A stretch of DNA of 20,437 nucleotides from Paracoccaceae bacterium (GTDB lineage: Bacteria > Pseudomonadota > Alphaproteobacteria > Rhodobacterales > Rhodobacteraceae), in NCBI GenBank assembly GCA_003561595.1, contig PWWF01000413.1, forward strand, positions 1 to 20,437, in the 5' to 3' direction. Shown here piece after piece: positions 736 through 20,437 of this stretch. A model generated the notes under the pieces. That model ran no database searches. It was not told the DNA's origin and saw nothing but the letters and a program-made list of their open reading frames with translations. Each line of letters opens with the position of its first letter. Position 1 is the stretch's first letter. Made by a program: the position numbers and the translations under genes.

Positions 736-2457
736 TCAGAACAGAAAGTAGCGCTGCGCAAGCGGCAATTCGCTGGCCGGTTCACAGGTCAGCAATTCGC
801 CATCTGCGCGCACTTCATAGGTTTCGGGGTCCACTTCTATCTGCGGGGTGGCGTCATTCAGGACCAGATCGGATTTCTGCACCCCCCGACACCCCGCAAC
901 GGCAAGCGCGTCCTTGGCCAGCCCCAGCGCGTCGCGCACACCTTCCTCTTGCGCGGCCTGGCTGATGAAGGTGACGGCGCTGCGCTCGACCGCGCGGCCA
1001 AAGGACCCGAACATCGGGCGCGAATGCATCGGCTGCGGGGTGGGGATAGAGGCATTGGGATCGCCCATCTGCGCGACCATGATGGACCCGCCGATCAGCA
1101 CCATTTCCGGTTTCGCACCGAAAAACGCGGGCGACCACAGGCACAGATCGGCGCGCTTGCCTTCCTCGATGCTGCCGATATGCGCGCTCAGACCGTGCAC
1201 GATGGCCGGGTTTATCGTATATTTCGCGATGTAGCGCCGCACGCGCAGATTGTCATTCGCGCCTGCCTCACCATCCAGCCGCCCGCGTTGCAGCTTCATC
1301 TTGTGCGCGGTCTGCCATGTGCGGGTGATGACCTCGCCGATCCGCCCCATGGCCTGACTGTCCGAGGAAATCACTGAAAACGCGCCCATATCGTGCAGGA
1401 TATCCTCGGCGGCGATCGTCTCGCGCCGGATGCGGGATTCGGCAAAAGCCACATCCTCGGGCACCTTGCGGTCCAGATGGTGGCAGACCATCAACATATC
1501 GAGATGTTCCTCGATCGTGTTGACCGTGTAGGGCATGGTCGGGTTGGTGGATGACGGCAGGATGTTCTGGCTGCTGACCACCTTGATGATATCGGGCGCA
1601 TGGCCCCCGCCCGCGCCCTCGGTGTGAAAGGCGTGGATGGTGCGCCCGCCAATGGCCTTGATCGTGTTTTCCACAAAGCCCGATTCGTTCAGTGTATCCG
1701 TGTGGATCATGACCTGAATATCGGTCGCCTCGGCCACGGACAGGCAGCAATCGATGGCTGCCGGGGTGGTGCCCCAATCCTCGTGCAGTTTCAGCGCGCA
1801 GGCCCCGGCGCGCACCTGTTCGTGCAGCGCATCGGGCAGTGACGCATTGCCCTTGCCCGCAAAGGCCAGGTTCATGGCAAAGGCATCCGCCGCCTGCAGC
1901 ATCCGCCCGATATGCCAGGGCCCCGGTGTGCAGGTGGTGGCCAACGTGCCATGCGCGGGGCCAGTGCCCCCGCCCAGCATGGTCGTCAGGCCGGAATGCA
2001 ACGCATCGTCAATCTGCTGCGGGCAGATGAAATGGATATGCGCGTCAAAGCCCCCGGCAGTCACGATCTTGCCCTCGGCGGCGATGATCTCGGTGCCCGG
2101 TCCGATGATGACATCGACACCGGGTTGCGTGTCGGGGTTGCCCGCCTTGCCGATCTTGTGGATGCGCCCGTCGCGCAAGCCGATATCGGCCTTGTAGATG
2201 CCGCTATGGTCCACGATCAGCGCATTGGTGATGACCGTGTCCATGGCCCCGGCCTCGCGCGTGATCTGGGACTGGCCCATCCCGTCGCGGATGACCTTGC
2301 CGCCGCCGAACTTGACCTCTTCGCCGTGGCCGCCGCGCTCCGCGATCAGGTCGCGCTCGACCTCGATGATCAGATCTGTGTCACCCAGCCGCACCTTGTC
2401 GCCCGCAGTGGGGCCATACATATCGGCATAGGCCGCGCGGGAAATGCTGTAAGCCAT
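736..2457 (-). CDS. ureC: Urease alpha (catalytic) subunit UreC
   Basis: The catalytic subunit hydrolyses urea to ammonia and carbamate at a dinuclear nickel centre in the cytoplasm. It is full length at 573 residues. All active-site residues are present, offset by six from Klebsiella numbering: His140 and His142 (HIH), Lys223 for carbamylation (ALKLHEDWG), His225, His252 ([10 protein letters not shown]), His278 ([11 protein letters not shown]), the mobile-flap His326 (VCHHLD) and Asp366 (SSDSQAMGR). The enzyme should therefore be active once nickel is loaded. The start at ATG 2457 is one base past the ureB stop, so the three structural genes form a tight translational unit. After the stop there are 134 bp before the next ORF, the only sizeable gap within the operon. 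Separate alpha, beta and gamma subunits are the standard bacterial arrangement. Confidence 0.98.
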
Positions 2458-2458
2458 T

Positions 2459-2764
2459 CTAGAGCGCCCCCATTACTGTGCCATTGAACCCATACACCTT
2501 GCGCCCGCCTGCATAGGGCACCAGCCGCACCTCTCGGGTCTGGCCGGGCTCAAAGCGCACGGCGGTCCCGGCGGGAATATCCAGCCGCTGGCCCTGTGCT
2601 GCCGCGCGGTCAAAGGACAGCCCGTCATTCGCCTCGGCGAAATGGTAATGGCTGCCCACCTGCACAGGCCGGTCGCCGGTATTCGAGACCTCCAGCACCG
2701 TGACGGGCACGCCTGCATTCACCTCGATCTCGCCATCGGGACAGATGATTTCTCCGGGGATCAT
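2459..2764 (-). CDS. ureB: Urease beta subunit UreB
   Basis: A structural subunit of the (alpha-beta-gamma)3 urease complex, with no catalytic residues of its own. At 101 residues it has the normal family length. It begins with the typical MIPGEI followed by [11 protein letters not shown]. Further family signatures are [20 protein letters not shown] followed by [14 protein letters not shown], and the C-terminal YGFNGTVMG. It starts at ATG 2764 with AAGGAG six bases upstream; that site lies inside the last codons of ureA, leaving three bases between the ureA stop and this start. The ureB stop is one base from the ureC start. The spacing implies all three subunits come from one polycistronic message. 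Confidence 0.97.
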
Positions 2765-2767
2765 CGC

Positions 2768-3079
2768 TCACTCCTTCTCGCGGATGGGGTGGTGGACCGT
2801 GACCAGCTTGGTGCCATCGGGAAAGGTGGCCTCGACCTGCACGGAATGGATCATTTCAGGGATGCCGGGCATGCACTGATCGGCAGTGATGACATGCGCG
2901 CCGGTATCCATCAGTTCGGCGACCGGGCGGCCATCGCGCGCGCCCTCGACCACGAAATCGGTGATCAGGGCAATCGCCTCGGGGTGGTTGAGCTTCACGC
3001 CCCGTTCCAGCCGGTTGCGCGCCACCATAGCGGCCAGCGCGACCAGCAGCTTGTCCTTTTCGCGTGGGGTCAGGTTCAT
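2768..3079 (-). CDS. ureA: Urease gamma subunit UreA
   Basis: The small structural subunit of urease, needed to assemble the trimer of heterotrimers. It has 103 residues, close to the usual 100. It opens with [13 protein letters not shown], continues with [20 protein letters not shown] and ends in the [21 protein letters not shown] block, all characteristic of UreA. The start at ATG 3079 has GGAGG four bases upstream; that site sits directly after the TGA of ureD, so the ribosome can reinitiate across the ten-base gap. Nothing in the sequence is abnormal for the family. Confidence 0.97.
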
Positions 3080-3089
3080 GCAGCCTCCG

Positions 3090-3896
3090 TCAGATTTGCC
3101 AGACGCGCGGCAGGGCGCGCCCGCGCAGGATAGTCAGGATACGCGCCAGACAGCGCCGCAGCGGCCAGCCGTCCCGCGCCATCAGGCGCACGACCAGACG
3201 GCCATCCGGGCAGGATGCGGCGGCGTGGCAGTCGGGGTCATCCAGCACCGGGCGCAGCGCATCGCGCGCAGCATCTGCCCCCGGCCCGATACGCACCAGC
3301 GTCGCCAGCGCGCGCGCGCCACCCAGCCCCGCGCTGGACGCGCCCAGCCGCGCGCTATCCAGCGCCAGCGCCTCGATATGCAGGGGCGTGTCGCCCCGCC
3401 GGATCATCCGCAGATCGTGGAAATTCAACGCACTGACTGTCTCGCCCATCGCAGCGCGGCCAAGAACCAGCGTCTCGACACTCAGGCAGGTGGCGCCGGG
3501 CGCGAGCGTGATCTGCGTGCGCCGCCGCGCGCGGGCGCGCTGGAACAGGATCGTTTCCTGCGGCAGCCAGTCCAGATGCGCGCCTGCACCGACATCCAGC
3601 GTCACGCCCATCCGCGCGTGTCCCGATGCGCTGCGATACACGCGCTCGGCGGTCTGCGTCGTGGCCGTGACCGTGCAGCTATCGCCCACGGACAGGCCAT
3701 ACTCCAGCACATCCCCGCCTGTCAGCCCGCCAGAGGTGTTGAGGAACACCATCTCGCCCCCATCCAGCGCGATGGCCTTGGCGGACCCGCGCTGATGCAA
3801 GGCCTGCACCTGCGCGCGGCCCCGGCGCAGCGCATAGCCTGCGCGCGCGGTCCCCATGCTGCGTTGATGGCGCAATTCAGTGGAATGAGCGTTCAT
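3090..3896 (-). CDS. ureD: Urease accessory protein UreD
   Basis: UreD is the first scaffold protein to bind apo-urease; with UreF and UreG it forms the complex that carbamylates the active-site lysine and inserts nickel. The protein is 268 residues from ATG 3896, a normal length. Family marks are [20 protein letters not shown] (about residues 50-69), [11 protein letters not shown] and [12 protein letters not shown] longer in-frame start at 3986 would add 30 residues, but ATG 3896 is preferred because GGAGG lies four bases upstream and the resulting N-terminus is normal for UreD. It is the first gene of the operon; its promoter should lie in the 220-bp divergent region shared with xthA. No nitrogen- or nickel-responsive operator could be recognised with confidence there. 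Confidence 0.93.
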
Positions 3897-3900
3897 CCGA

Positions 3901-3905
3901 CCTCC
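3901..3905 (-). promoter_or_regulatory. Shine-Dalgarno site deciding the ureD start
   Basis: The minus strand reads GGAGG four bases before ATG 3896. It supports the 268-residue UreD over the longer 298-residue open frame. Confidence 0.65.
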
Positions 3906-4000
3906 GTCCCGTGGTGATGCCGCCTTGCCCGGGGCAAGACAATCGGTCGCGCGGCGGGGCTGACGCTTCGGCGCAGAGCAATTCATGACGCGGTGAAATT

Positions 4001-8337: not shown

Positions 8338-9212
8338 GCCGGTCCGGCGGCCTTTACCCGTGCGCGCCACAGGGTAAAGACCCCGGCGCCCACGACGACA
8401 GCCGCGCCCACGACCACATTGCTGCGGATCGCCTCATTGAACATCAGAACGCCCAGAGCAGCGGCAAAAGGCAGTTGCAGATAGGCAAAGGGCTGCACGG
8501 CGCTGGCTTCGGCCACCTCATAGACGCGGATCAGCAGGAAATGGCTGAAGGCCGCCGTCGCGCATAGCAGGATCATCCAGCCCCAGTCGCCCCGCGCCAT
8601 CGGTTCCCAGAACCACAGGCCGATCAGTGTCATCGTCACCGCCCCGGCCACACCCGTCCAGAAAAAGCTGACCGCCGCGCTGTCCTTGCGCGCGGCATAG
8701 CGGGTCAGCAAACCGTAAAGCGCGAACATCAGCGCGGCCAGCAACGGGATCAGGGCCGCTGGCTGGAACACGCCAAAGCCCGGCTGCAGGATGATCAGCA
8801 CCCCCACAAAGCCGATCGCGATTGCCACCCAGCGCCGCCAGCCGACAGCCTCGCCCAGCACCGGGCCGGACAGCGCAGCGATCAGCAGCGGATAGACGGC
8901 AAAGACCGCATGGCTTTCCACCAGCCCGATCACGACAAAGGCGGTGACCATGACGCAGACCTCCAGCGCCAGCAGAACCCCGCGAAAGATCTGCAATATC
9001 GGCTGCCGGGTGGCCACCGCCGCGCGCAGGCCGCCTGCCTGCCGCGCGGCTACCACGATCACGAAACTGGCAAAGAACCAGTAGCGGATCATGATGATCA
9101 TCAGCACATTGTATTCGCCCGCCAGATGCCGCGACACCCCGTCCTGCATGGCAAAGACAAAGGATGTCGCGATCATCAGCCAGATGCCGAGCGTGTTGTT
9201 CTGCGGGCTCAT
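8334..9212 (-). CDS. EamA/DMT-family inner-membrane transporter
   Basis: A membrane protein of 292 residues with about ten hydrophobic segments in two homologous halves, as in drug/metabolite transporters of the EamA type. The first segment is LGIWLMIATSFVFAMQDGVSRHL; others include ALLAALMFALYGLL and VVVGAAVVVGAGVFTLW near the end. The substrate cannot be read from the sequence; relatives export amino acids, nucleosides or other metabolites. ATG 9212 is chosen because the protein then begins at the first membrane segment and overlaps the TGA of the upstream methyltransferase gene in an ATGA junction. The longer open frame to 9644 is antisense-frame noise within that gene. Coupling to a tRNA-modification gene is curious but may be simple compaction. 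Its stop overlaps the mmsB stop by four bases. Confidence 0.9.
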   Translation of the reverse strand: MSPQNNTLGIWLMIATSFVFAMQDGVSRHLAGEYNVLMIIMIRYWFFASFVIVVAARQAGGLRAAVATRQPILQIFRGVLLALEVCVMVTAFVVIGLVESHAVFAVYPLLIAALSGPVLGEAVGWRRWVAIAIGFVGVLIILQPGFGVFQPAALIPLLAALMFALYGLLTRYAARKDSAAVSFFWTGVAGAVTMTLIGLWFWEPMARGDWGWMILLCATAAFSHFLLIRVYEVAEASAVQPFAYLQLPFAAALGVLMFNEAIRSNVVVGAAVVVGAGVFTLWRARVKAAGPA

Positions 9213-9862
9213 GCCTTGTGGCCCCGGCTCATATGTCGCTTGCGCCCGTATCCCGGTGCGCGTGTGACCGTGAACCCCGCCGCTGCCAGGGCACGGCGCA
9301 CATGCCCCGCCGCCGTATAGGTCGCGAAACTGCCGCCCGCTTTTGTGTGTCGCCCGACCTCTGCCATCAGCGTGTCGGTCCACAATTCGGGGTTCCTGGC
9401 GGGCGAGAAGCCGTCCAGATACCACGCATCGGCCTGCCCGTCCCAGTGGGGCAATGTCGTGCGTGCATCGCCCAGGATGATCTCGACCTCCAGCGCGCCA
9501 AGGGCAAAGCGCGCCTGTCCCCAATGCGCCAGCAGCCCGGATGCATCCAGTTCCGGAAAGGCCCGCAATGCGCGTTCTGCATCCGCGCTGGGGATGGGAT
9601 ACGCCTCGAAACTCGTGTAGCGGATAGGGCCTGGCACACCGCAAAGTGCCTCCAGTGTCGCCAGCAGGTTCAGCCCGGTGCCAAAGCCAAGCTCGGCAAT
9701 GTGAAACCCGGCCTGCGCGCGCGCGCGCAGATCATTGCCGTCAATGAACACATGCCGCGTCTCTGCCAGCCCGTCTTCAAGCGAGAAATAGGGGTCGTCA
9801 AACCGGGTCGAAACCGGGACGCCCTCATCCTTCCAGGCAAGCTCTGCATGCTGGCCGTTCAT
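9209..9862 (-). CDS. mnmD: Stand-alone MnmC-type tRNA methyltransferase (MnmD / MnmC methyltransferase domain)
   Basis: It would transfer the final methyl group from S-adenosylmethionine in making 5-methylaminomethyl-uridine at wobble position 34 of certain tRNAs. From ATG 9862 the protein has 217 residues, matching the N-terminal methyltransferase half of E. coli MnmC. Signatures are STRFDDPYFS (residues 18-27), the cofactor-binding ELGFGTGLN (57-65), the family motif YLDGFSPARNPELW and FATYTAAGHVRRAL near the end. The in-frame start at 9922 is rejected since it overlaps the divergent gene start and its extra residues have no family similarity. The FAD oxidoreductase partner is encoded divergently 59 bp away instead of being fused. 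The stop overlaps the permease start (ATGA). Confidence 0.9.
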   Translation of the reverse strand: MNGQHAELAWKDEGVPVSTRFDDPYFSLEDGLAETRHVFIDGNDLRARAQAGFHIAELGFGTGLNLLATLEALCGVPGPIRYTSFEAYPIPSADAERALRAFPELDASGLLAHWGQARFALGALEVEIILGDARTTLPHWDGQADAWYLDGFSPARNPELWTDTLMAEVGRHTKAGGSFATYTAAGHVRRALAAAGFTVTRAPGYGRKRHMSRGHKA

Positions 9863-9921
9863 CGCTATCTGCCTTATGTCTGCCTCTGCCGGATACATGC
9901 AGAGGCGCGCAGGAAATGACA

Positions 9922-10953
9922 ATGCCGGATGTGACGATCATGGGGGCCGGGGTCTTCGGCCTGACCCTCGCGCTGGCCTGCCGCGAGCGTGGCGCGCGCG
10001 TGCAGGTGATCGAGGCACGGGCCATCGGCGCGGGGTCCAGCGGCGGGCTGGTCGGCGCGCTGGCCCCCCATGTGCCCGAAAACTGGAACGCCAAGAAAGA
10101 CCTGCAATTCGACGCGCTGCGCATGGCGCAGGACTATTGGCGTCGGGTGCAGGAGATATCAGGCATTGATCCGGGCTATGCGCGGCTGGGTCGGGTACAG
10201 CCCGTGCCGGAGGGGGGGCTGGAACTGGCGCGGGAGCGGGCGGCGGGCGCGCGTGATCTGTGGCAGGGCTTCGCGCAATGGCATGTCCTGCCAGTGGATG
10301 AGGCGCCGGGTCTGGTGCCGCATGCGCCATCCGGCTGGGTGATCCATGATACGCTCAGCGCGCGGCTGCATCCGCGCCGCGCGGGGCAGGCGCTGGCAGG
10401 CGCGTTGCAGGCATTGGGTGGCGAGATCGTCTTTGGCACGGCAGAGCCGCGCGGCAAGATCGTCTGGGCCACCGGGTATGAGGGGTTGGAGGCGCTGAGC
10501 ACGGCGCTGGGCCGCAAGATCGGTGGCGGGGTCAAGGGGCAGTCGCTGCTCTTGCGTCATGACGCGCGCGCAGCACCCCAGCTTTTCGCCGACGGGCTGC
10601 ATATCGTGCCGCATTCCGATAGCACCATCGCCATCGGATCGACCAGCGAACGCGATTTCGACAGCCCCGACAGTGTGGATGCCCAATGCGATGCGCTCCA
10701 TGCCCGCGCGCTGGCCATCTGTCCCGCGTTGCAGGGCGCGCCGGTCCTCGCGCGCTGGGCGGGTGTGCGACCGCGTGCGCGGTCCCGCGCGCCACTGCTG
10801 GGGCCATGGCCAGGGCGGGCGGGGCAGTATGTGTTCAATGGCGGGTTCAAGATCGGCTTCGCCATGGCCCCGGCGCTGGCGCAGATCATGGCCGATCTGG
10901 TGCTGGACGGGGTGGACCGCGTCCCGCGCGATTTCGGCTTCGACGCGCTGTAG
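9922..10953 (+). CDS. Stand-alone FAD-dependent MnmC-type oxidoreductase (cmnm5U34 demodification)
   Basis: A DadA/glycine-oxidase-like flavoprotein of 343 residues. It probably corresponds to the oxidoreductase half of MnmC, which removes the carboxymethyl group from 5-carboxymethylaminomethyl-uridine in tRNA to give the substrate of the methyltransferase. The N-terminus carries the FAD-binding fold (VTIMGAGVFGLTLAL, then VIEARAIGAGSSGG). A C-terminal arginine-rich block (WAGVRPRARSRAPLLG) and the NGGFKIGFAMAPALA segment complete the family pattern. ATG 9922 is preferred to ATG 9916 because AGGA lies seven bases before it and only one base before the other. The functional assignment relies on homology plus the divergent MnmD neighbour; alone, a D-amino-acid or glycine oxidase would be a fair alternative. 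Confidence 0.82.
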   Translation: MPDVTIMGAGVFGLTLALACRERGARVQVIEARAIGAGSSGGLVGALAPHVPENWNAKKDLQFDALRMAQDYWRRVQEISGIDPGYARLGRVQPVPEGGLELARERAAGARDLWQGFAQWHVLPVDEAPGLVPHAPSGWVIHDTLSARLHPRRAGQALAGALQALGGEIVFGTAEPRGKIVWATGYEGLEALSTALGRKIGGGVKGQSLLLRHDARAAPQLFADGLHIVPHSDSTIAIGSTSERDFDSPDSVDAQCDALHARALAICPALQGAPVLARWAGVRPRARSRAPLLGPWPGRAGQYVFNGGFKIGFAMAPALAQIMADLVLDGVDRVPRDFGFDAL

Positions 10954-10967
10954 TGCAGCGCCGCGGC

Positions 10968-10983
10968 GCGCGGAGAGCCGCGC
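10968..10983 (+). terminator. GC-rich hairpin after the MnmC-type oxidoreductase
   Basis: GCGCGG, loop AGAG, CCGCGC: a 6-bp perfect stem 15 bases after the stop codon, followed by a pyrimidine-rich stretch (TTGTCTCTCT) rather than a true T run. It may act as a weak intrinsic terminator for the plus-strand gene. Confidence 0.4.
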
Positions 10984-10986
10984 CCG

Positions 10987-11013
10987 CACGTTGTCTCTCT
11001 GTCACAAAACGTG
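10987..11013. repeat. Inverted repeat CACGTT-N15-AACGTG in the convergent gap
   Basis: A 6-bp perfect inverted repeat between the convergent oxidoreductase and glycosyltransferase genes. It could form a loose hairpin or serve as a protein site. It lies immediately after the GC-rich hairpin, so a bidirectional termination role is possible but unproven. Confidence 0.25.
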
Positions 11014-11086: not shown

Positions 11087-14000
11087 TCAACCGGACCCGA
11101 TGACCCGAGGCATGCGCTCCACCTCGCGCATTGGTCCACTCGTCCGGGGCAGGGTGATCGTGTTCTGCAACTCTGACACCGGCTTTGTTAAGGCCGTTGC
11201 GGTTGTCATGGCCGCCCCTGCGCCGGTGATGGCAGCCCATTCCCCCCGCAAGACCCGATGCCCCGCACCGAAGTTCGCGCAGATATCCTGCACAGTCTTG
11301 CAATCCGCCAGCCGGACCGAGAGGGCAGGGTCATACATCACCTCGCGCGCTTCGACCCGCAGCCCGAGATACTGGCGATATTCCTCAGCATTGTTGAAAT
11401 GCTGGCCGCGCGCGACCTCAGCTTCTGCCTTGGCGTGAAAGGCGGCGTGGTATTTGAAATGCCCAAAGGCCAGATCCCGCGCCGCAACCCGCGCGCCGGT
11501 CAGGTAATGCAGCCCCGCGGACAGGCGCATCAGGGGGTGGTATTTCAGCAGCGCGTATTTCTGGGCCACGAACAGATTGGCCCGCGCGGGTGTGCCAGCC
11601 TGTGCCATCAGGCGATGGCGCAGCGCGCTGGTCACAGTCTCGCAATTCGACCATGGCCCAAGGCCCTGCCAGTCGCGCCGTAGCGGCTCGCGGTCCAGCC
11701 ACCCGGCCTCGGCAAAGGGGGCGCGGGTCAGCGGCACCTGCGACAGCGGCTGATCGGGATAAAGGTCGAGCATCAGCAGGCGCACAGCGTCACATTGCGC
11801 AAAGGCCGCCCCGTCCAACAGGCTCGGCAAGTCGCCCCGGACATGGCCATCCGCGTCCGGTAGCCGCCAGAAGGCCAATTCATCTGCATCGGCCAGAAGC
11901 GACCATTTGCCCAGACGAAACTGCGCCATCAGCGCTTCCTGCCAATCAACCCCGTAGCTGGACAGGCGGTAGGGCGTGTCGGTCGAAAAGACGCTGACAT
12001 CGGGCTGGGCGACCAGCGCCTCCAGCGTGCCGTCATCCGATCCGTTATCCACCACCAGAAAGGCATCCGCCCCCAGCCTACGGTAATGCGCGAGGAAATG
12101 CGGCAGCATGACCGCCTCATTGCGCATGACCGCGATGACGGCCAGCGGGGCGGTGCGCGCGCCCTCCAGCCGTTCGGGCGGCGTGACAAGATCGAGCGCA
12201 TTATTCGCCCAGCCGGTGCGGGCGGGCACGTTGGGGGGCCAGACCTTCATAGGGCTGGGCCATGGGCTGCGTGTGGCCTCTTGCGCCGTGGCAGGCGGTG
12301 TGCCCCCGTCCAGATGCACGAGTTTCAGGCCAGAACCCGCGAAGGGCAGAAAGCTGTTTTCATATTGCGACAGGGGCGGCAGCCCCGCCGCTGCCTTGCG
12401 AAATACCGCGACATCATAGCCGGGCCCCTCAACCGTCACCCCAGTCAGGCCAAGCAGATCGCCGACCAGCTTGTCCTCCATGAACGAGACCTGTTCCAGT
12501 GCGCGCCCGCGCGCAGTGTTGCGGGCCGTGACCAGCGCCTGCAGGGCCGGGCGCGCCAGCATGTAGCCGGTGCTGCCATCGGCATAGAGCGAGGGTTCGG
12601 GCGATTTGTCCAGCTCCTGTCGGCCGCGAGCGGACCCCGCCTTTGCCATATGCCAGCCCCGGTCCATCGACCCCGCGCCGCGGCGCAGCGGGCGACCGTA
12701 ATAGGGTGTGTTCAGAAAGGCGCCATCGGCAAAATACGCCTCGGGGTCGAGAAAGCAGTCATCATCGATCTTGAGCACGCGGCCAAAGCCGGTGCGCGCC
12801 AGCACCCATTCGGCGAGCGCCAGCGTTTTCTGCGGCAGGCCTTCGTAATCATCGGGCACATCAAGTTGCAGCAGCGCCCCGTCAAAACGCGTGGGCGCGC
12901 GATCCTGACCTTGCGGGCGACCAACAACAGTGATCACCGGGATGCCGCGCGCGCGCAGCGCATCGCCCCAGGCCGCCATGACCTGAGGAACACGCGTCGC
13001 AAGATTGGCGTGGCAGGAGATCAGGGCGACCAGCGTATCGGCAAAGGGCGATGCGCTCGCGCGCAATTCCCGTGCGCGCGTGTCCTGCGTGTCAGGTGCC
13101 AGCATGTCCGGATCTAAACTGATCCGTTCCTGCACATGCACGGCATGCTCGGGGCGAAGTGCCACGAACCGGGCGAGTGACAGACGCGCTGCCAGCGCCT
13201 CCTGCGGCAGGTGCTGCCCGGCAGGCAAAGACTGCAAGGCGGTGTCGCGCAGGTCGCGTGCAAGCTCGGTATCGCCCTGAGTTGCCGCAGCTTCGGCAAT
13301 AGACAGCAACCCGGCAAGCCCGGCATACCCAGCCTCAGGTATGCACAGCGCCAATCCGGCGCGCCTCAATTCCGTGATTGCAGGCTCTGGGGGGATCTGT
13401 CCTTGTTTCAACGCCTGCTCACACAGGGCAACCTGTGCCGCAAGATGCGCTGTCACACGCGACCATGGTGGGCGCGGGATGTGCCGCGCCCCGAACCGCA
13501 GCGCGTGGTAAGCGGTCCGGTGCACTGGCTCGTCCTTTTCAAGCACGAGCGCGGCGCGCTCTGCCCCGGTACGCGGTCGCGCCAGCCAGCGCAGACAGGC
13601 CTCTGCTGTGATGTCCGGTCCCGCGATATCGGGACGGTCCGTGATCTGCTGGCCAAGGACCCGCGCCAGAGGCTCTGCCCCGGCGATGCGTTTTTGGATA
13701 AACGGAGATGCGGCTTGCATCGAGGGGCCGCCCGTCGCCAGCCCGCGCTCGAGAATCTCGAAATCGCGCGCGGCCTCGGCGACCGGGGGCAGCGCCATGA
13801 CTGTGCTATTTGTGCGCGCCTGTTGCCAGAATTCCGGTCGCACCCCATAGGCCGCGAGCGCCTGCGCGGGATACCAGCTTGCGCACCAGTCGGGCAGATA
13901 GGGCAGTTGTGCAAGGATCGCCAGCACACCGCCGATCAGTCTTGTGCAGGGCATTTGGGACGTGTGGTTCGGCGCAAGATCGGCAACCAGTTCAAGCAGC

Positions 14001-15358
14001 GCCGTCATCATCGCGATCCGCTGATCGGTGGGCGGTGGCGCCCCCTGGTGATCGCGCAGGTTCCGCGCCAAGGCGCAGGCGGTCCATGCAAGGCAGGGGG
14101 TCAGCACCCATCCACGCCCCTTGCGCGGGTAGCGGCGGAGTGTCTGCCGGATCAGTGGCCAATCCCCCTGCGCCCAGAGCATCGGTAGCGCGGCCAGTCC
14201 CAACCCGGCATCTGCGTCCATCCGTGCTGAAAGGGGCCATAGCAAGCGCGGGTCCGAATGCAGGCAGAACCACTCGCTCAGCTGCAGTGCCAGCGGGACG
14301 ATCTGGTCGGGTGCCAGATCATGCTCTGTGCAGATATCCCTGAACATGTCGGAAGGGTCGCGGGCATGTCCCTGCCCCGCGCAGCGGTGAAACGCGTCCC
14401 GCGCCACCAGAACCGGGTCGTTCTGCGATTGGGTGGGCGCAGGTGGTGGTTCCATCCGGTCTGGAGGGCTGAAACCGGCTAGCGGAACCGTCGCGGCGGC
14501 CTGTTCCAGAATGCTGCGCAACTCCGGGGGCAGTGCGTCCCAGACCCTGGCAAAATGCACATGCTCCAGCATCTGCATCCGGGCGGCGATGTCGTTGCGT
14601 GCGATCCAGCCGGCCTCTGGCTGTTGCAGTGCCGCGCATAGATCGGCGCGGCGCAGCTGCAGCGTTTCAGTTGTGCCACGCCGCTGTAGTTCCAGCGCAA
14701 CATCCTCTCCGCGCCAGATGCGTCCGGGCAGGGTGACCAGGCTCAGGCGCTGCAATTTCGGCATCCTGGCGCCCGGCACGGGCAGCACGGGCAGTTGCGT
14801 CCCGTCCGGCAGGAGGACGTGCGCCTCTGCCTCTGCCGGGTATGGCAGAACAAGCTCCATTCGCGGGCTTAGCCCTCGGGTCGTGGGCGCAAGGCGACGC
14901 AAGGACCGCAGCCCGGCGGGCCATGTCATTGCGCTGACCCGGTTCAGCCCGGCAAATCCGCGCCGCAGGAAGAATCGCCCCTCGCGCGACGGGCGCGGAC
15001 AGGCGTCTGCGCGCGCCACGATCTGCCCGTCCAGCCAGACCCGCAGCGCCAGATTCCCCAGCAGGTCGCGCAGGCATTCCAGATACAGATCATGCACCGC
15101 GCGCCGCAGGGGCGCGGCAAGCGGGACCTCGCGCCGCCAGCCTTTTGCCGCGCGGCGGTTCAGAACGATCACTCCCTCATCACGGCGCAGCGACAGGTGA
15201 AAGGGCGCATCCCCCACTACAGGATCAAGGAAATCGATATTCACACAGGCATGGTGGATCAGATCGATCTCCATGCACAGAACGGCCCTTGCGGAGAATG
15301 TCACAGGGCCATGGTCGGGCCAGTCCTGCGCCGCTGACGGGCGGCGCTCAGGTTGCAT
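11087..15358 (-). CDS. Large multidomain glycosyltransferase with N-terminal galectin-like domain
   Basis: A 1423-residue protein with no signal peptide or membrane segment, so probably cytoplasmic. Residues about 20-153 look like a galectin-type lectin domain. Residues 160-295 are a further beta-rich region. A Pro-rich linker (about 297-315) leads to a long helical region (to about 765) matching no family I recognise. Residues about 769-1010 resemble family GT31 beta-1,3-galactosyltransferases (LVALISCHANL, DVPDDYEGLPQKTLALAEW, then KIDDDCF with Asp865-867 as metal-binding triad). Residues about 1070-1330 resemble a family-2-like transferase of the Glyco_tranf_2_4/GT92 kind (VIAVMRNEAVMLPHFLAHYRR with Asn1080, LVVDNGSDDGT, and Asp1157-Ala-Asp1159-Glu). 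Two transferases in one chain suggest synthesis of a repeating or two-sugar unit. ATG 15358 has GAAAGG seven bases upstream and overlaps the sulfotransferase gene by 11 bp. Acceptor and sugars are unknown. Confidence 0.85.
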   Translation of the reverse strand: MQPERRPSAAQDWPDHGPVTFSARAVLCMEIDLIHHACVNIDFLDPVVGDAPFHLSLRRDEGVIVLNRRAAKGWRREVPLAAPLRRAVHDLYLECLRDLLGNLALRVWLDGQIVARADACPRPSREGRFFLRRGFAGLNRVSAMTWPAGLRSLRRLAPTTRGLSPRMELVLPYPAEAEAHVLLPDGTQLPVLPVPGARMPKLQRLSLVTLPGRIWRGEDVALELQRRGTTETLQLRRADLCAALQQPEAGWIARNDIAARMQMLEHVHFARVWDALPPELRSILEQAAATVPLAGFSPPDRMEPPPAPTQSQNDPVLVARDAFHRCAGQGHARDPSDMFRDICTEHDLAPDQIVPLALQLSEWFCLHSDPRLLWPLSARMDADAGLGLAALPMLWAQGDWPLIRQTLRRYPRKGRGWVLTPCLAWTACALARNLRDHQGAPPPTDQRIAMMTALLELVADLAPNHTSQMPCTRLIGGVLAILAQLPYLPDWCASWYPAQALAAYGVRPEFWQQARTNSTVMALPPVAEAARDFEILERGLATGGPSMQAASPFIQKRIAGAEPLARVLGQQITDRPDIAGPDITAEACLRWLARPRTGAERAALVLEKDEPVHRTAYHALRFGARHIPRPPWSRVTAHLAAQVALCEQALKQGQIPPEPAITELRRAGLALCIPEAGYAGLAGLLSIAEAAATQGDTELARDLRDTALQSLPAGQHLPQEALAARLSLARFVALRPEHAVHVQERISLDPDMLAPDTQDTRARELRASASPFADTLVALISCHANLATRVPQVMAAWGDALRARGIPVITVVGRPQGQDRAPTRFDGALLQLDVPDDYEGLPQKTLALAEWVLARTGFGRVLKIDDDCFLDPEAYFADGAFLNTPYYGRPLRRGAGSMDRGWHMAKAGSARGRQELDKSPEPSLYADGSTGYMLARPALQALVTARNTARGRALEQVSFMEDKLVGDLLGLTGVTVEGPGYDVAVFRKAAAGLPPLSQYENSFLPFAGSGLKLVHLDGGTPPATAQEATRSPWPSPMKVWPPNVPARTGWANNALDLVTPPERLEGARTAPLAVIAVMRNEAVMLPHFLAHYRRLGADAFLVVDNGSDDGTLEALVAQPDVSVFSTDTPYRLSSYGVDWQEALMAQFRLGKWSLLADADELAFWRLPDADGHVRGDLPSLLDGAAFAQCDAVRLLMLDLYPDQPLSQVPLTRAPFAEAGWLDREPLRRDWQGLGPWSNCETVTSALRHRLMAQAGTPARANLFVAQKYALLKYHPLMRLSAGLHYLTGARVAARDLAFGHFKYHAAFHAKAEAEVARGQHFNNAEEYRQYLGLRVEAREVMYDPALSVRLADCKTVQDICANFGAGHRVLRGEWAAITGAGAAMTTATALTKPVSELQNTITLPRTSGPMREVERMPRVIGSG
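14900..15301 (-). other. Galectin-like carbohydrate-recognition domain within the large glycosyltransferase
   Basis: Residues about 20-153 of the 1423-residue protein. The galectin sugar-binding pattern H-x-N-x-R ... V-x-N ... W-x-x-E-x-R is nearly complete: His54-x-Ser56-x-Arg58, Val65-x-Asn67, Trp74-x-x-Glu77. Three spacings equal those of galectin-3: His to Arg four, Asn to Trp seven, Trp to Glu three. The Arg-to-Asn loop is shorter (9 against 12). The galectin Asn in the first motif is Ser here, and the last Arg is replaced by Pro79. The following LRVWLDGQIVARAD and GLNRVSAMTW match the later galectin strands. This is by-eye recognition. Confidence 0.6.
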
Positions 15359-16052
15359 GGGTCAACCTTTCGCGCATGATCGCGCGCATATCTGCCGCCG
15401 CCGGTCGCCCATCGAGCGCCTGGAACAAAGGTTCCAAAGCGTCATGATCCGAGACATACTCCTCATAGCGCAGGGTGAGACAACGGGACGGATGGGCAGC
15501 TGCAACCGCGTCAAAGACCTGCTCAGCCGAGTGGATCACGGCCTGCACCTCTGCCGGATCGTGCCGCCGCCACCAGGAAGATCGGGCGACCGCATGGACA
15601 TCACGCGTGTTGAAGATCAGGCGTGCGCGCGGAAAGTTCCGCAGGATGAATGCCAGATAGGCGCGGAATTCGGCCTGATCGGGGAGAGTGCGGATTTCCT
15701 TGAACCCGCCGATGCGGGTGCCCGGCGGCGGCCGCAGCACCTGCGCGACAAAGCATTCGGTCAGCATGCGTGCATAGGTGTCGGCATCGATACGCTCCGC
15801 CCCGAACCATGGATGCGCGGGGTCGGAGATCAGGGATCTTGCCCGCATGTCGCGTATGTCCGGACTATGCGCCAGCGCCCGCCAGCTTCGGAACAGCGGG
15901 TAGAGTGCATTGTTGTTCTCGCCCCGGATCAGGCAGCCCGGAACCGCGTTCATCAGCCGTTGCAGCAAGGTCGAGCCCGAGCGCCCGTAAGTGACGATAA
16001 AGGCATATCCGTCAGGGGGATGTCGAAACTGGCTCACGTATCGTTGCCTCAT
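15348..16052 (-). CDS. PAPS-dependent sulfotransferase family protein
   Basis: It probably transfers sulfate from 3'-phosphoadenylyl-sulfate to a carbohydrate. The protein has 234 residues. The 5'-phosphosulfate-binding loop is TYGRSGSTLLQRLMN (residues 21-35). The 3'-phosphate-binding region is visible as RLIFNTRDVHAVARSSWWRR, with the usual Arg and Ser. A TLRYEEYVSDHDALEPLFQAL segment near the C-terminus is the typical family ending. The ATG at 16052 has a poor ribosome site; GTG 16037, with GAGG nine bases before it, is an equally plausible start and would lose five residues. The gene overlaps the large glycosyltransferase gene by 11 bp, so the two are co-expressed and likely act on the same glycan. 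It is divergent from the P-loop gene at 16177. APS/PAPS synthesis genes are not in the window. Confidence 0.85.
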   Translation of the reverse strand: MRQRYVSQFRHPPDGYAFIVTYGRSGSTLLQRLMNAVPGCLIRGENNNALYPLFRSWRALAHSPDIRDMRARSLISDPAHPWFGAERIDADTYARMLTECFVAQVLRPPPGTRIGGFKEIRTLPDQAEFRAYLAFILRNFPRARLIFNTRDVHAVARSSWWRRHDPAEVQAVIHSAEQVFDAVAAAHPSRCLTLRYEEYVSDHDALEPLFQALDGRPAAADMRAIMRERLTHAT

Positions 16053-16176: not shown

Positions 16177-17322
16177 ATGCTCGATTCAGACCCACCTCGC
16201 GGACCGACTGTCGCAGATGCGTCACTGCAGGCGCATCCGGGGCACGACCTTGACCAGCATCGCGCGCGGGCCACCGGGATGGATGTGCAGGGTCTGACGG
16301 CTGCGATGATGGCACGCGCGGATCTGGGCGATATCCGCGCCGCTTTGGTCTATGGCGAGGCTTTGTTTGCTCGGCAACCCGGTGCCGCGCTGGCACAGCG
16401 TCTGGCGCGGTTCCATCGGCAATGCCGAACTTTCCGGGCGGGCGCGCGCCTGCTGTCGCGCGTGCAGGCGCGGTCATGCGAGTGCCCTGCAGTGTTACGC
16501 CAGCAGGCGGAGCTTGCCGCGCTGGCGCAGGACTTCAGCGCAGCGGCCAACCTGTGGGAACAGGTGTTGGGAGCAAGTCGTGAACTGGGCAGCTATGCCA
16601 TTCTACAAGCGGTCGGATGTTTGCGGCACGCCGGACAAGATGCGCTTGCGCAAAAGGTCATCCGCGCCCATTCGGACCCCCTGCGCGCAGCCCATGGACC
16701 GGATGCCGTGGCACTGCTGTCCAAAGGGTTGCAGGGGCTGCCCGCTGCGCCGCCGGCGCTGAGCATGATCACCGGCAATAACGGCACCGGCAAGACCAGC
16801 GTCGGGCATCTGTTGCAGGCCATCGGGTTCCGGATCGTCGATGCGGATGCCGCGATCGGCATGTATTGCCGGGCGGGGCAGTACAGCCCGCTGCGCTTTG
16901 ATCTGACGCAGGGCAATCCGCAGATGGAGCGCGATATCGTCTGGATCTGGCCAGGGTCGTTGTTTCATGCGGCCTGTTCTCGGGCGCGGGATTCCGGGCG
17001 TCCCGTCGCCGTCGTCGGTGGGTTCGGCCGGGTTGTCGCGCCCTTCATCGAACAGGTAGATCACGTTATCCATATGGCAGCGCCGACCGGGGTGATCGCG
17101 CGGCGACTGGCAAAGCGCAACTCGCCCACCCACCGCCCCGGTACGCGTGGCCATGCAGCCGCGTTGCGGCGCAATGACCGGCTGTCAGCACAGGCGCTCG
17201 GCGCGACCCCGATCCGGGCGAACCAGCCGATCTGGCAGGTCTGCGCTGATATCCTGGCCGCTTTTGCAGCGCCCGGGAACGCACCCGGGCCGCAGGCTTC
17301 CGTATGCGCGCGGCAGCCTTAA
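16177..17322 (+). CDS. Unassigned protein: helical (TPR-like) repeats plus P-loop kinase-like domain
   Basis: A 381-residue protein I cannot name. Residues about 35-185 are Ala-rich helical hairpins with tetratricopeptide-like spacing (GDIRAALVYGEALFARQP, QDFSAAANLWEQVLG, GQDALAQKVIRAHS). Residues about 195-360 form a nucleotide-binding domain: Walker A is GNNGTGKT with Lys206 and Thr207, then a DADAAIG motif (222-228) placed as in shikimate or nucleoside-monophosphate kinases, a VVGGFGRVVAPF strand, and a basic RRLAKR segment that may act as lid. Phosphorylation of a small molecule or sugar is the likeliest activity, but the substrate is unknown. No membrane segment or signal peptide is seen. 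ATG 16177 has only AGGG-type upstream bases; ATG 16279 is an alternative. It precedes the type I secretion pair by 97 bp on the same strand and is divergent from the sulfotransferase, so it may link the two units. Confidence 0.75.
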   Translation: MLDSDPPRGPTVADASLQAHPGHDLDQHRARATGMDVQGLTAAMMARADLGDIRAALVYGEALFARQPGAALAQRLARFHRQCRTFRAGARLLSRVQARSCECPAVLRQQAELAALAQDFSAAANLWEQVLGASRELGSYAILQAVGCLRHAGQDALAQKVIRAHSDPLRAAHGPDAVALLSKGLQGLPAAPPALSMITGNNGTGKTSVGHLLQAIGFRIVDADAAIGMYCRAGQYSPLRFDLTQGNPQMERDIVWIWPGSLFHAACSRARDSGRPVAVVGGFGRVVAPFIEQVDHVIHMAAPTGVIARRLAKRNSPTHRPGTRGHAAALRRNDRLSAQALGATPIRANQPIWQVCADILAAFAAPGNAPGPQASVCARQP

Positions 17323-17419
17323 CCTCGTCTCAAACTCTCTGCGGCATGGTCCTGTTACACTCTGGCACACCCCGCCGGGGGCCAAACTGTCCATTGCCGC
17401 ACCCGGAAAGACCATTCGC

Positions 17420-19201
17420 ATGACCCACCCCCCCGATACCGCGCCTGGCGACCGTATCAGGGGGCTGCTGACCCGCGGCGAAGGGCGTCTGGTCTGGGTC
17501 ATTGGGGGGATCAGTGTCTTCACCAACCTGCTGATGCTGACCGGGCCGATCTTCATGCTGCAGGTCTATGACCGTGTGCTGTCCAGCCAGTCGGAACCGA
17601 CGCTGCTTGTCCTGTTCGCGCTGGTCGCCTTTCTCTACACCGTCTTTGGCGTGCTCGATCATGCGCGTGCGCGCATCGGTGCGCGGCTGGGTGCGCAACT
17701 TCATGACCGGCTCGACCCGCAGGTTTTCGCGGCGGCCCTGAGCACGGATCGCACGCGCGCCGCAAGGGCCCCGGCCGAGCTGTCGGGCCTGCAGCAATTC
17801 GCCAGCGCCCCGGCCTTCATGGCGCTGTTCGATTTCCCCTGGGTGCCGCTGTTTCTGGGCATAATCGCGCTGCTGAACCCATGGCTGGGGTTGTTGGCCT
17901 GCCTGGCCGCGCTGCTGCTTGCGGGGTTGGGCATGGCCAATATTCGCGCCAGCCGCTTACCGGTGGGGCAGGCGCAAACATCGGCGTTCCGGGCCGACCG
18001 GATGACCCGCCAGATCGCGCAACAGAGCCCCGAGCTCGATACCATGAACATGCGCGCAGGCGCGCTGTCGCGCTGGCAGGGGCAGCGGCGGAAGGCGCTT
18101 GATCATGCGCTGGCGCTCAGCGATACCTGCGGACGGTTCGGCGCTACTGCGCGCGCGTTACGGCTGTTCCTGCAATCCGCGATTCTGGCTGCGGGCGCGT
18201 TGCTGGTGCTGCGCGGGCAGTTGACGCCGGGGGGCATGATCGCGGCCTCGATCATTCTGGGCCGGGCGCTGGCGCCGCTGGATCAGTTGATCGGGGGCTG
18301 GCCGCAAGTGCAGCTTGCGCGCGCGGGCATGGCAAGCTTGCGTGACCTGCTGTCACACAATCCGCCCCTGCGCGCGCGCACCCGGCTTCCCGTCCCGCGC
18401 GGGCAGCTTGTCGTCCGCCAGCTTGGGCTGCAGGTGCAAACCGGGGCGCGGCGTGTCGTGTTGCGGGATGTGAGTTTCACGCTGGGGCATGGGCAGGTGC
18501 TGGGCGTCGTCGGGGCTTCGGGCGCGGGCAAATCCTCGCTCGCGGCGGCGCTTGTCGGGCTCTGGCCGCCCGACAGGGGCGAGATCCGGCTGGATGGCGC
18601 GCGGCTGGACCAGTATCCGCCCGACCAGCTTGGCGCAGCGCTGGGCTATCTGCCCCAGCGCGTCACCCTGTTCGAGGGCAGCCTGCGCGACAATATCGCG
18701 CGTCTGGACCCGGCTGCCAGCGACAGTGATGTGATTGCCGCCGCAAAGGCGACCGGCGCCCATGACATGATCCTGTCACTGCCCGATGGCTATGAGACAA
18801 TGATCACGTCTGAGGAGGCGCGGCTTTCGGGGGGCCAGAACCAGCGGATCGGGCTGGCCCGCGCCTTTTTCGGCGATCCTGTCGTGATTGTTCTGGATGA
18901 ACCCGATGCCAGTCTGGATGCTGAGGGGTTGCGCGCGCTGGGCCTGGCGATCACTGCGGCGCGGGACCGGGGGGCGAGCGTGGTCCTGACCACGCATCGC
19001 GTCGAATTGCTGCAGGGCTGTGACATGACCATCCAGCTGGAGCGCGGCGCTATGGTCCGGCCCCACCCGGCGAGTGGCGAAGCCGCCCGACGGCACACTG
19101 CTACACGATCGGTCCCGCAAGTGCTGCAAGCACCGGTTCTGACGGATGCTGGCCAGATCAGGTTTCCGTGGGAGGCCGGTCGCAACGGGGCCGCACGATG
19201 A
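17420..19201 (+). CDS. Type I secretion ABC transporter, PrtD-like permease-ATPase
   Basis: The inner-membrane energy component of a type I secretion system, exporting proteins straight through both membranes with an HlyD adaptor and a TolC-like channel. The protein has 593 residues. The membrane domain (about 25-300) starts with the typical LVWVIGGISVFTNLLMLTGPI and LQVYDRVLSS. There is no N-terminal C39 peptidase domain, which fits the PrtD group. The ATPase domain is complete: Walker A G365-S372 (GASGAGKS), Q-loop YLPQRVTLFEGSLRDN, signature LSGGQ (469-473), Walker B ending Asp493-Glu494, and H-loop His526. ATG 17420 is chosen because GGAAAG lies nine bases upstream and the protein then has the normal family N-terminus; the open frame back to 17147 runs through the preceding gene. 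The stop overlaps the adaptor gene start (ATGA). The substrate is unknown. Confidence 0.93.
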   Translation: MTHPPDTAPGDRIRGLLTRGEGRLVWVIGGISVFTNLLMLTGPIFMLQVYDRVLSSQSEPTLLVLFALVAFLYTVFGVLDHARARIGARLGAQLHDRLDPQVFAAALSTDRTRAARAPAELSGLQQFASAPAFMALFDFPWVPLFLGIIALLNPWLGLLACLAALLLAGLGMANIRASRLPVGQAQTSAFRADRMTRQIAQQSPELDTMNMRAGALSRWQGQRRKALDHALALSDTCGRFGATARALRLFLQSAILAAGALLVLRGQLTPGGMIAASIILGRALAPLDQLIGGWPQVQLARAGMASLRDLLSHNPPLRARTRLPVPRGQLVVRQLGLQVQTGARRVVLRDVSFTLGHGQVLGVVGASGAGKSSLAAALVGLWPPDRGEIRLDGARLDQYPPDQLGAALGYLPQRVTLFEGSLRDNIARLDPAASDSDVIAAAKATGAHDMILSLPDGYETMITSEEARLSGGQNQRIGLARAFFGDPVVIVLDEPDASLDAEGLRALGLAITAARDRGASVVLTTHRVELLQGCDMTIQLERGAMVRPHPASGEAARRHTATRSVPQVLQAPVLTDAGQIRFPWEAGRNGAAR

Positions 19202-20437
19202 CATCCGCGCGCTATTCGGCACGGGGGCCACTGCGTATCGCTGCCGCCGCGATCATCTTTCTGCTGTTCGGCTTCGGGTCATGGGCGGTTGCAGCGCGCC
19301 TGTCCGGGGCGGTGATCGGCGAGGGGGTGATCGCGGTCGAGCGCAATCTTCTGGCCCTGCAGCACCCCGATGGTGGTGTGATCGCGGACCTGCCGGTCGT
19401 TGAGGGGCAGGAGGTCGCGCCCGGAGAGGTTCTGCTACGCATCGACGGGGCAGCGCTGGAGACGGAGCTGCGGCTGATCGAGGGGCGGCTGACCGAGATT
19501 CTGGCGCGGCGCACGCGGCTGGAGGCCGTGATCGCGGGGGCGGAGGAACTGGAGCCACCCGCGGATGCACCGCTACCTGTGATGCAAGAGAAATTCGCCG
19601 CGAGCCTGCGCAGCGAGGCCGCGGTGTTCGATGCGCAGCACATTGCCAAGGCGGCGCTCGTCGCGCAGCTATCGCAACGCAAGGTGCAGATCGATGCGCA
19701 ACTGGACGGGATCGCGGCGCAGATCGCGGCACTTGACGAGCAGCGCGCCCATGTTCAGCGTGAACATGACGTTCAGGCCAAGCTGATCGCGCAAGGCCTG
19801 GCACAATCCGCGCGCCTGACCGCGCTGGAGCGCGAGGCCGCGCGGCTGCGCGGCAGCCATGCGGGCCTGATCGCTGACCGGGCCGTGGCGGCAGAGCGCC
19901 GGGCCGAAATCGCGCATCAGATCCTGTCGCTGAATGCCCAGCACCGGGATGAGGCGCTGCGGGAATTGCGCGATGTCACGCTGCAACAGGCCGAGCTGAC
20001 CGAACAGCGCGCGGCATTGCGCGGCCGCATCGCGCGGCTGAGCCTGCGCGCGCCGATGCGCGCGCGCGTGCATGCGCTGGCCGTCGCCGGTGCGGGTGAG
20101 GTGCTGCGCGCGGGCGATGCGGCGCTGCATCTGGTGCCGACCGACCGGCCGCTGGTCATCACGGCGCAGGTGGCCCCGTCGGATATCGACCAGATTGTGC
20201 AGGGCCAGCAGGCGAGCATCGTGTTGCCATCGCTGAACCAGCGCGACCTGCCACAGCTTGACGCGCAGGTGACGCATGTGTCGGCGGATGTGTTTCAGGA
20301 TCAGGCGGGCGGGCCGCGGTATTACCGGGTCAAGCTGCGGATGGCCGAGGGGGCTCTGGGTGATCTGGTGCTGCGCCCCGGCATGCCGGTCGATGTGTTC
20401 TTCGCCACCGGCGCGCAAAGCCCGCTGACCTATCTGA
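19198..20437 (+). CDS. HlyD-family type I secretion periplasmic adaptor (C-terminus beyond window edge)
   Basis: The adaptor links the ABC transporter to an outer-membrane channel. ATG 19198 overlaps the ABC transporter TGA in an ATGA junction. The frame remains open for 413 codons to the right edge. A short cytoplasmic N-terminus is followed by one membrane segment (about residues 13-33, IAAAAIIFLLFGFGSWAVAA). A lipoyl/beta-barrel part follows (VERNLLALQHPDGGVIADLPVVEGQEVAPGE). Then comes a long Ala/Leu/Gln/Arg-rich coiled coil (about 85-280), and the second lipoyl half and barrel (LSLRAPMRARVHAL, VAPSDIDQIVQGQ, LRPGMPVDVFF). The last visible residues, SPLTYL, resemble the GERTPLSYL seen near the end of PrtE-type adaptors, so only some 15-30 residues are probably missing. 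A TolC-like protein or the substrate gene could lie to the right. Confidence 0.93.
   Translation, partial: MTSARYSARGPLRIAAAAIIFLLFGFGSWAVAARLSGAVIGEGVIAVERNLLALQHPDGGVIADLPVVEGQEVAPGEVLLRIDGAALETELRLIEGRLTEILARRTRLEAVIAGAEELEPPADAPLPVMQEKFAASLRSEAAVFDAQHIAKAALVAQLSQRKVQIDAQLDGIAAQIAALDEQRAHVQREHDVQAKLIAQGLAQSARLTALEREAARLRGSHAGLIADRAVAAERRAEIAHQILSLNAQHRDEALRELRDVTLQQAELTEQRAALRGRIARLSLRAPMRARVHALAVAGAGEVLRAGDAALHLVPTDRPLVITAQVAPSDIDQIVQGQQASIVLPSLNQRDLPQLDAQVTHVSADVFQDQAGGPRYYRVKLRMAEGALGDLVLRPGMPVDVFFATGAQSPLTYL

Follow-up and report, generated by a model that had tools for sequence, protein, structure and literature searches.

A galectin-type domain sharing one chain with GT31 and GT2-type glycosyltransferase domains in an alphaproteobacterial protein

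Galectin domain and gene layout

The stretch of Paracoccaceae bacterium DNA analysed here (contig PWWF01000413.1, 20,437 nucleotides; the window) carries an open reading frame (ORF) at 11087..15358 on the minus strand, whose predicted product of 1423 amino acids, P0001, joins an N-terminal galectin domain to a GT31 domain and a GT2-type glycosyltransferase domain. The domain almost certainly has the galectin fold and is homologous to galectins. An earlier note, made from the sequence of the window, had proposed that a galectin-like module and a GT31-like catalytic domain are paired in this chain, a proposal now supported by profile comparison, fold and conservation. The layout of the gene is as follows.

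11087..15358, minus strand: P0001, 1423 amino acids; galectin domain, middle region predicted to be helical, GT31 domain and GT2-type glycosyltransferase domain
14900..15301, minus strand: galectin-fold domain, residues 20-153 (profile match to PDB galectins, AlphaFold2, Foldseek, VIA-align)
15128..15199, minus strand: core sugar-contact residues His54, (Ser56), Arg58, Asn67, Trp74 and Glu77 (predicted strands, alignment)
12959..14887, minus strand: middle region, residues 158-800 (AlphaFold2 pLDDT 65.2)
12179..12991, minus strand: GT31 (Galactosyl_T) domain and flanks, residues 790-1060 (PF01762, profile A5)
11873..12124, minus strand: GT2-type domain PF13704, residues 1079-1162 (79.8 bits, cut-off 27.5)

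The sequence HLSLRRDEGVIVLNRRAAKGWRRE begins at residue 54 of P0001, and the positions His54, Ser56, Arg58, Val65, Asn67, Trp74 and Glu77 are therefore correct. When residues 20-153 were shuffled 200,000 times, the pattern H.[SN].R, N, W..E with gaps like those of galectins, which was formulated with hindsight, arose twice. A plain sequence search of the PDB returned galectins as its top matches, weakly (4hl0, E 0.0048). The gap between Arg and Asn is that of 4hl0, without insertion or deletion (HLSLRRDEGVIVLN in the window domain, HISVRFDEGKIVFN in 4hl0); we take 4hl0 to be a nematode protein, and the corresponding gap of galectin-3 is presumably longer. The family profile of the domain matches PDB galectins, with the core residues aligned to those of galectin-9 and 4hl0, and a loose search of the window's own genome with PF00337 (E<=10) found the galectin domain at no better than E 0.0405. 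Structural comparison, which the earlier note had advised, gave the same answer: an AlphaFold2 model of the domain (pLDDT 76.5) was matched to the galectin beta-sandwich by Foldseek and VIA-align. The core contact residues fall on three successive predicted strands (E50-58, E63-70 and E73-81), which together with the alignment suggests that they would cluster.

Conservation of the binding site

Relatives were collected by similarity to the window domain, and galectin sequences played no part. A search with residues 15-165 against approximately 5.8 billion proteins found five, the query included. When 394 genomes of the same family were searched with the single sequence, 23 had matches at E<=0.01; reading of the frames led us to accept 13 of these (own genome included) as real and to discard the other 10, which were shadow frames or unrelated proteins. 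Twelve of the 13 real members were aligned (alignment A1), G207 being omitted as cut by a contig end; the rows share 23-34% identity with the window domain.

Eight columns of A1 are invariant, namely N25 and F28 (row numbering) and the equivalents of His54, Ser56, Arg58, Asn67, Trp74 and Glu77. The galectin pattern read at His54 to Glu77 by the earlier note is thus confirmed, all five contact residues as well as Ser56 being among the invariant positions. The probability of five preset positions falling among 8 invariant columns of 143 is 1.2e-7. A wider sample, drawn from loci and proteins, comprises 49 homologous domains, none identical to another though with near-duplicates still included; in it Arg58 and Asn67 are conserved in 49/49 and His54, Trp74 and Glu77 each in 48/49. 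All five occur together in 47 of the 49; of the two exceptions, one is cut by a contig end and the other, G549, has lost the His. Among same-genus members with full coverage, overlapping partly with the 49, the five residues are retained in 18 of 19, a twentieth member, cut by a contig end, lying outside this count.

Catalytic domains and middle region

PF01762 matched residues 829-975 of P0001 at 24.2 bits, its cut-off being 23. The hallmarks of GT31 enzymes are a metal-binding DDD motif and an E-D-x-x-x-G motif; P0001 has KIDDDC at 863 and EDKLVG at 961. A profile, A5, was built from ten GT31 regions of the family, and its best solved relatives in the PDB were beta-1,3-galactosyltransferase 6 (4.5e-7) followed by beta-1,3-galactosyltransferase 5 (4.9e-5). 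K.DDDC and EDK..GDLL are invariant in all ten A5 sequences. The profile score over cut-off, the nearest solved relatives and both motifs place the predicted domain in GT31. The GT2-type domain, PF13704, has DADE at residue 1157.

The middle region begins with short beta segments and is otherwise predicted, at modest confidence, to be mostly alpha-helical. Residues 158-800 gave no PDB match at E<=0.001 and no usable fold match; the region is a possible scaffold. Neither a membrane span nor a signal peptide is obvious in P0001 from hydropathy, its highest 19-residue Kyte-Doolittle mean being 1.54.

Family architecture and distribution

Each of the 16 full-length proteins examined with Pfam carries two or more glycosyltransferase domains that exceed their cut-offs. 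Frames containing the lectin are mostly 1,363-1,457 or 1,989-2,085 residues long at the loci read; others are of 1,223 (in another family), 1,683, 1,723 and 1,882 residues. Several long frames also contain an ATG directly ahead of the lectin and may begin there instead. Two PF00535 (GT2) stretches occur in P0010, L046 and L074, either ahead of the lectin or with the best-scoring stretch on its N-terminal side; P0008 has one such stretch ahead of the lectin. At the short end, G162 (L116 206-2284, minus strand) encodes a protein of 693 residues with a lectin core (HIAYR, N, W..E) and GT31 in a single frame, the lectin match being weak (E 6.4e-4). Free-standing bacterial galectins were not established: five short matches, on contigs of <=6.7 kb, look like gene fragments.

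The lectin and GT31 occur together across the family genomes. Among 256 genomes, the lectin profile (E<=0.001) matched 11, the GT31 profile (E<=1e-6) matched 11, and both matched 10. The exceptions are G207, whose lectin is truncated at the end of a contig, and G152, with a weak GT31 match alone; in G216 both are on one contig, with frames split.

Within the genus, 20 of 37 genomes carry the domain. An accident of contamination or transfer limited to the window genome is ruled out by this count and by relatives in isolate genomes. Sampling of the order gave 16 of 292 genomes, all in the same family. In the class sample one genome of 385 matched besides the window's own: G940, of another family, whose protein of 1223 residues combines PF00337 (37.1 bits) with GT2 and GT25. 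This combination was found in two of the four genomes searched of that alphaproteobacterial family. The galectin-GT31 protein is therefore not a lone case, since it recurs across its family and a second alphaproteobacterial family fuses galectin to other glycosyltransferases. A phylum-wide search with PF00337 yielded one genome of 349, G250, of the same family as the window, which is a lower bound because the Pfam model missed the window domain itself there. Named hosts, drawn from 14 loci found with a probe from four close members and hence close relatives only, include Thalassobius vesicularis, Mesobacterium pallidum, Salipiger aestuarii, Tranquillimonas rosea, Ruegeria marina and Pseudophaeobacter flagellatus.

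Gene neighbourhood

Three further features lie beside the galectin-glycosyltransferase gene in the window.

15348..16052, minus strand: sulfotransferase PF13469 (54.3 bits, cut-off 27)
16177-17322, plus strand: ORF between two divergent gene groups, with a weak match to P-loop kinase PF13238 (24.5 bits, under the cut-off of 29.4)
17147-20436, plus strand: type I secretion ABC protein followed by HlyD adaptor (TIGR01842 545.5 bits, TIGR01843 255.3 bits)

The sulfotransferase gene overlaps the start of the galectin-glycosyltransferase gene by 11 bases on the same strand, and the two are probably co-translated. The type I secretion pair runs divergently from this operon. Farther away, 736-3986 (minus strand) reads like what we take to be a urease operon, with ureC, ureB, ureA and a ureD-like ORF.

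Neighbours were compared at 32 other loci, 31 of them distinct (L030 and L078 overlap), after six repeats of the same genomes had been excluded. ORFs with the P-loop motif of the window sulfotransferase occur at 8 or more of the 31 (four confirmed by Pfam), a BLAST cluster of GT4-type enzymes at 21 or more (one member confirmed by Pfam) and a BLAST cluster of UDP-galactopyranose mutases at 10 or more (PF03275 confirmed four members, and TIGR00031 confirmed two above its cut-off); the window genome has a mutase on a different contig. ABC ATPases of the polysaccharide-exporter type were found at 4 or more of the 31 loci, and the one examined has as best matches teichoic acid and galactan exporters, below their cut-offs. 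UDP-glucose dehydrogenase was found at 2 or more, with one member examined by Pfam.

Two side observations concern these neighbours. A sulfotransferase P-loop of the window type is also present at L117 1929-2684 (plus strand), in G152, close to a GT31-like gene in which no galectin domain was detected. L025 has a large ORF at 8738-10999 (minus strand) with RTX repeats, the one member tested of a BLAST cluster whose large ORFs lie beside galectin-glycosyltransferase genes at 8 of the 31 distinct loci. The proteins of this cluster may serve as substrates, either for the enzyme or for the type I secretion system.

Proposed function and alternatives

It is fairly probable that the domain is a genuine galectin-type carbohydrate-recognition module of a cytoplasmic, multi-domain enzyme of polysaccharide assembly. 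Sugar binding at the canonical galectin site is predicted and likely. We lean towards a role in holding the acceptor during glycan assembly, in which the domain probably holds the sugar chain under construction by the enzyme, because galectin contact residues are retained in nearly all relatives; such a role fits the gene neighbourhood. In this mechanism the galectin would bind a galactose-like unit, pyranose or furanose, of a growing surface glycan and would hold the acceptor end close to the GT31 and GT2 active sites. Holding of this kind may raise affinity or processivity, as lectin domains direct animal GalNAc-transferases, and the product might then be sulfated by the neighbouring sulfotransferase and exported.

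Several observations weigh against this interpretation. The window sequence by itself is weak evidence for a galectin: the PF00337 comparison suggested in the earlier note fell short of its cut-off of 22.1 bits for the window domain (10.8 bits at residues 48-78 in the Pfam scan of P0001, 14.7 bits when the domain was scanned alone), though 7 of 16 full-length proteins scanned exceeded it, and a loose search (E<=10) also produced matches in 7 of 14 control genomes, none over cut-off. Two further contact positions, Asn46 and Arg73 in what we take to be galectin-1 numbering, are common in galectins without being universal. Their equivalents in the window domain are Ser and Pro; across the 49 domains the former is Ser in 47, Ala in 1 and Glu in 1, and the latter is mixed. 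4hl0 likewise has Ser at the Asn46 position. Within the genus, G549 (L068) is without the His, while G1251 and G1252 (L101 and L102) carry Glu at the Ser position and retain His, Arg, Asn, Trp and Glu. The domain is an optional trait, because only 11 of the 256 sampled family genomes have it. The neighbour counts come from unequal flanks, without a matched random-locus background, and are lower bounds, and Pfam checks covered one or a few members of each neighbour cluster. Separately, the altered-site homologues L068, L101 and L102 constitute a natural test set for a change of ligand.

The differing Asn46 and Arg73 equivalents, and the loss of His in one member, are what would be expected were the galectin fold a structural or protein-binding module, or a binder of a sugar other than galactose, with its contact residues conserved for some other reason. 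We regard this as improbable, since the five residues persist in 47 of 49 domains although identity between the A1 rows and the window domain is as low as 23-34%. Chance resemblance, the domain being no galectin at all, draws on the sub-threshold score and the loose matches in control genomes; it is scarcely credible and is rejected on the agreement of the family profile, the relatives over cut-off and the fold comparison.

A different acceptor has also to be considered. The enzyme could O-glycosylate a secreted RTX-type or surface protein, the lectin reading sugars already present. The type I secretion genes that adjoin the locus divergently and the L025-cluster ORFs, of which the single tested member is RTX, would suit a protein acceptor, but genes for RTX proteins and type I secretion are widespread among Rhodobacteraceae, and the mutase, polysaccharide-type ABC ATPase and UDP-glucose dehydrogenase neighbours suit a polysaccharide better. 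A precedent exists in the plant galectin-GT31 enzymes GALT2-6, which act on proteins, namely arabinogalactan proteins (PMC4687291). Taken together, a protein acceptor appears unlikely, and assembly of a polysaccharide remains the preferred interpretation.

Comparison with known systems

Domain annotation already exists for some members, PF00337 being recorded in databases on P0007, P0010, P0011, P0014 and P0017-P0019, and the pairing of galectin with GT31 is already known from plants. No literature on a bacterial galectin-glycosyltransferase was found among the open-access papers listed. The galectin fold is best known from animals and fungi. A tentative and rather doubtful extension is that Alphaproteobacteria own a long-standing galectin line whose members hold the chain for glycosyltransferases and have been joined to different catalytic domains on more than one occasion (GT31 with GT2; GT2 with GT25), so that galectins would not be a eukaryotic invention. 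If so, the plant pairing would either be related to the bacterial one or have arisen convergently to meet the same need. The findings point to a surface glycan in bacteria of the roseobacter group that would contain galactose and may be sulfated, and to a supply of new galectins from which glycan tools could be made.

The fusions of galectin to GT31 that could be documented are in plants; the earlier note had named animal enzymes. The six Arabidopsis proteins GALT1-GALT6 have as their defining feature the presence of both PF00337 and PF01762, and they are predicted to be Golgi membrane proteins of type II (PMC4687291). They resemble the bacterial protein in having both domains in one polypeptide. 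In contrast to them, the bacterial protein has no obvious membrane span by hydropathy, its lectin and GT31 are separated by roughly 640-675 residues, and its family adds one to three further glycosyltransferase domains. It would work like a GALT, yet is not classed as one because hydropathy gives no sign of the type II membrane character. The role of the galectin domain on a galactosyltransferase was set as future work for the plant GALTs in 2015 (PMC4687291), and the conserved bacterial set with GT31 would provide probably soluble models for that role.

With animal galectins (galectin-9, galectin-8, Caenorhabditis elegans LEC-6 and 4hl0) the bacterial domain shares the fold and the core His, Arg, Asn, Trp and Glu, and with 4hl0 also an equal His-to-Asn spacing and the Ser at the Asn46 position. 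Unlike them it sits in an enzyme, with no free-standing form seen, and its Arg73 position is unconserved. Polypeptide GalNAc-transferases also attach a lectin domain to a glycosyltransferase, with a lectin fold unrelated to galectin and a different GT family. Their linker-borne lectin domain modulates the site of action of the catalytic domain (PMC5716993). The ABC-dependent systems of Klebsiella O4 and O7 have several GT modules per polymerase and a carbohydrate-binding module that recognises the glycan (PMC11231755), and thus resemble the bacterial protein in uniting several GT modules in one protein with glycan recognition. Their carbohydrate-binding module, however, belongs to the ATPase of the transporter and recognises the terminus of the chain, whereas the bacterial galectin is on the glycosyltransferase protein.
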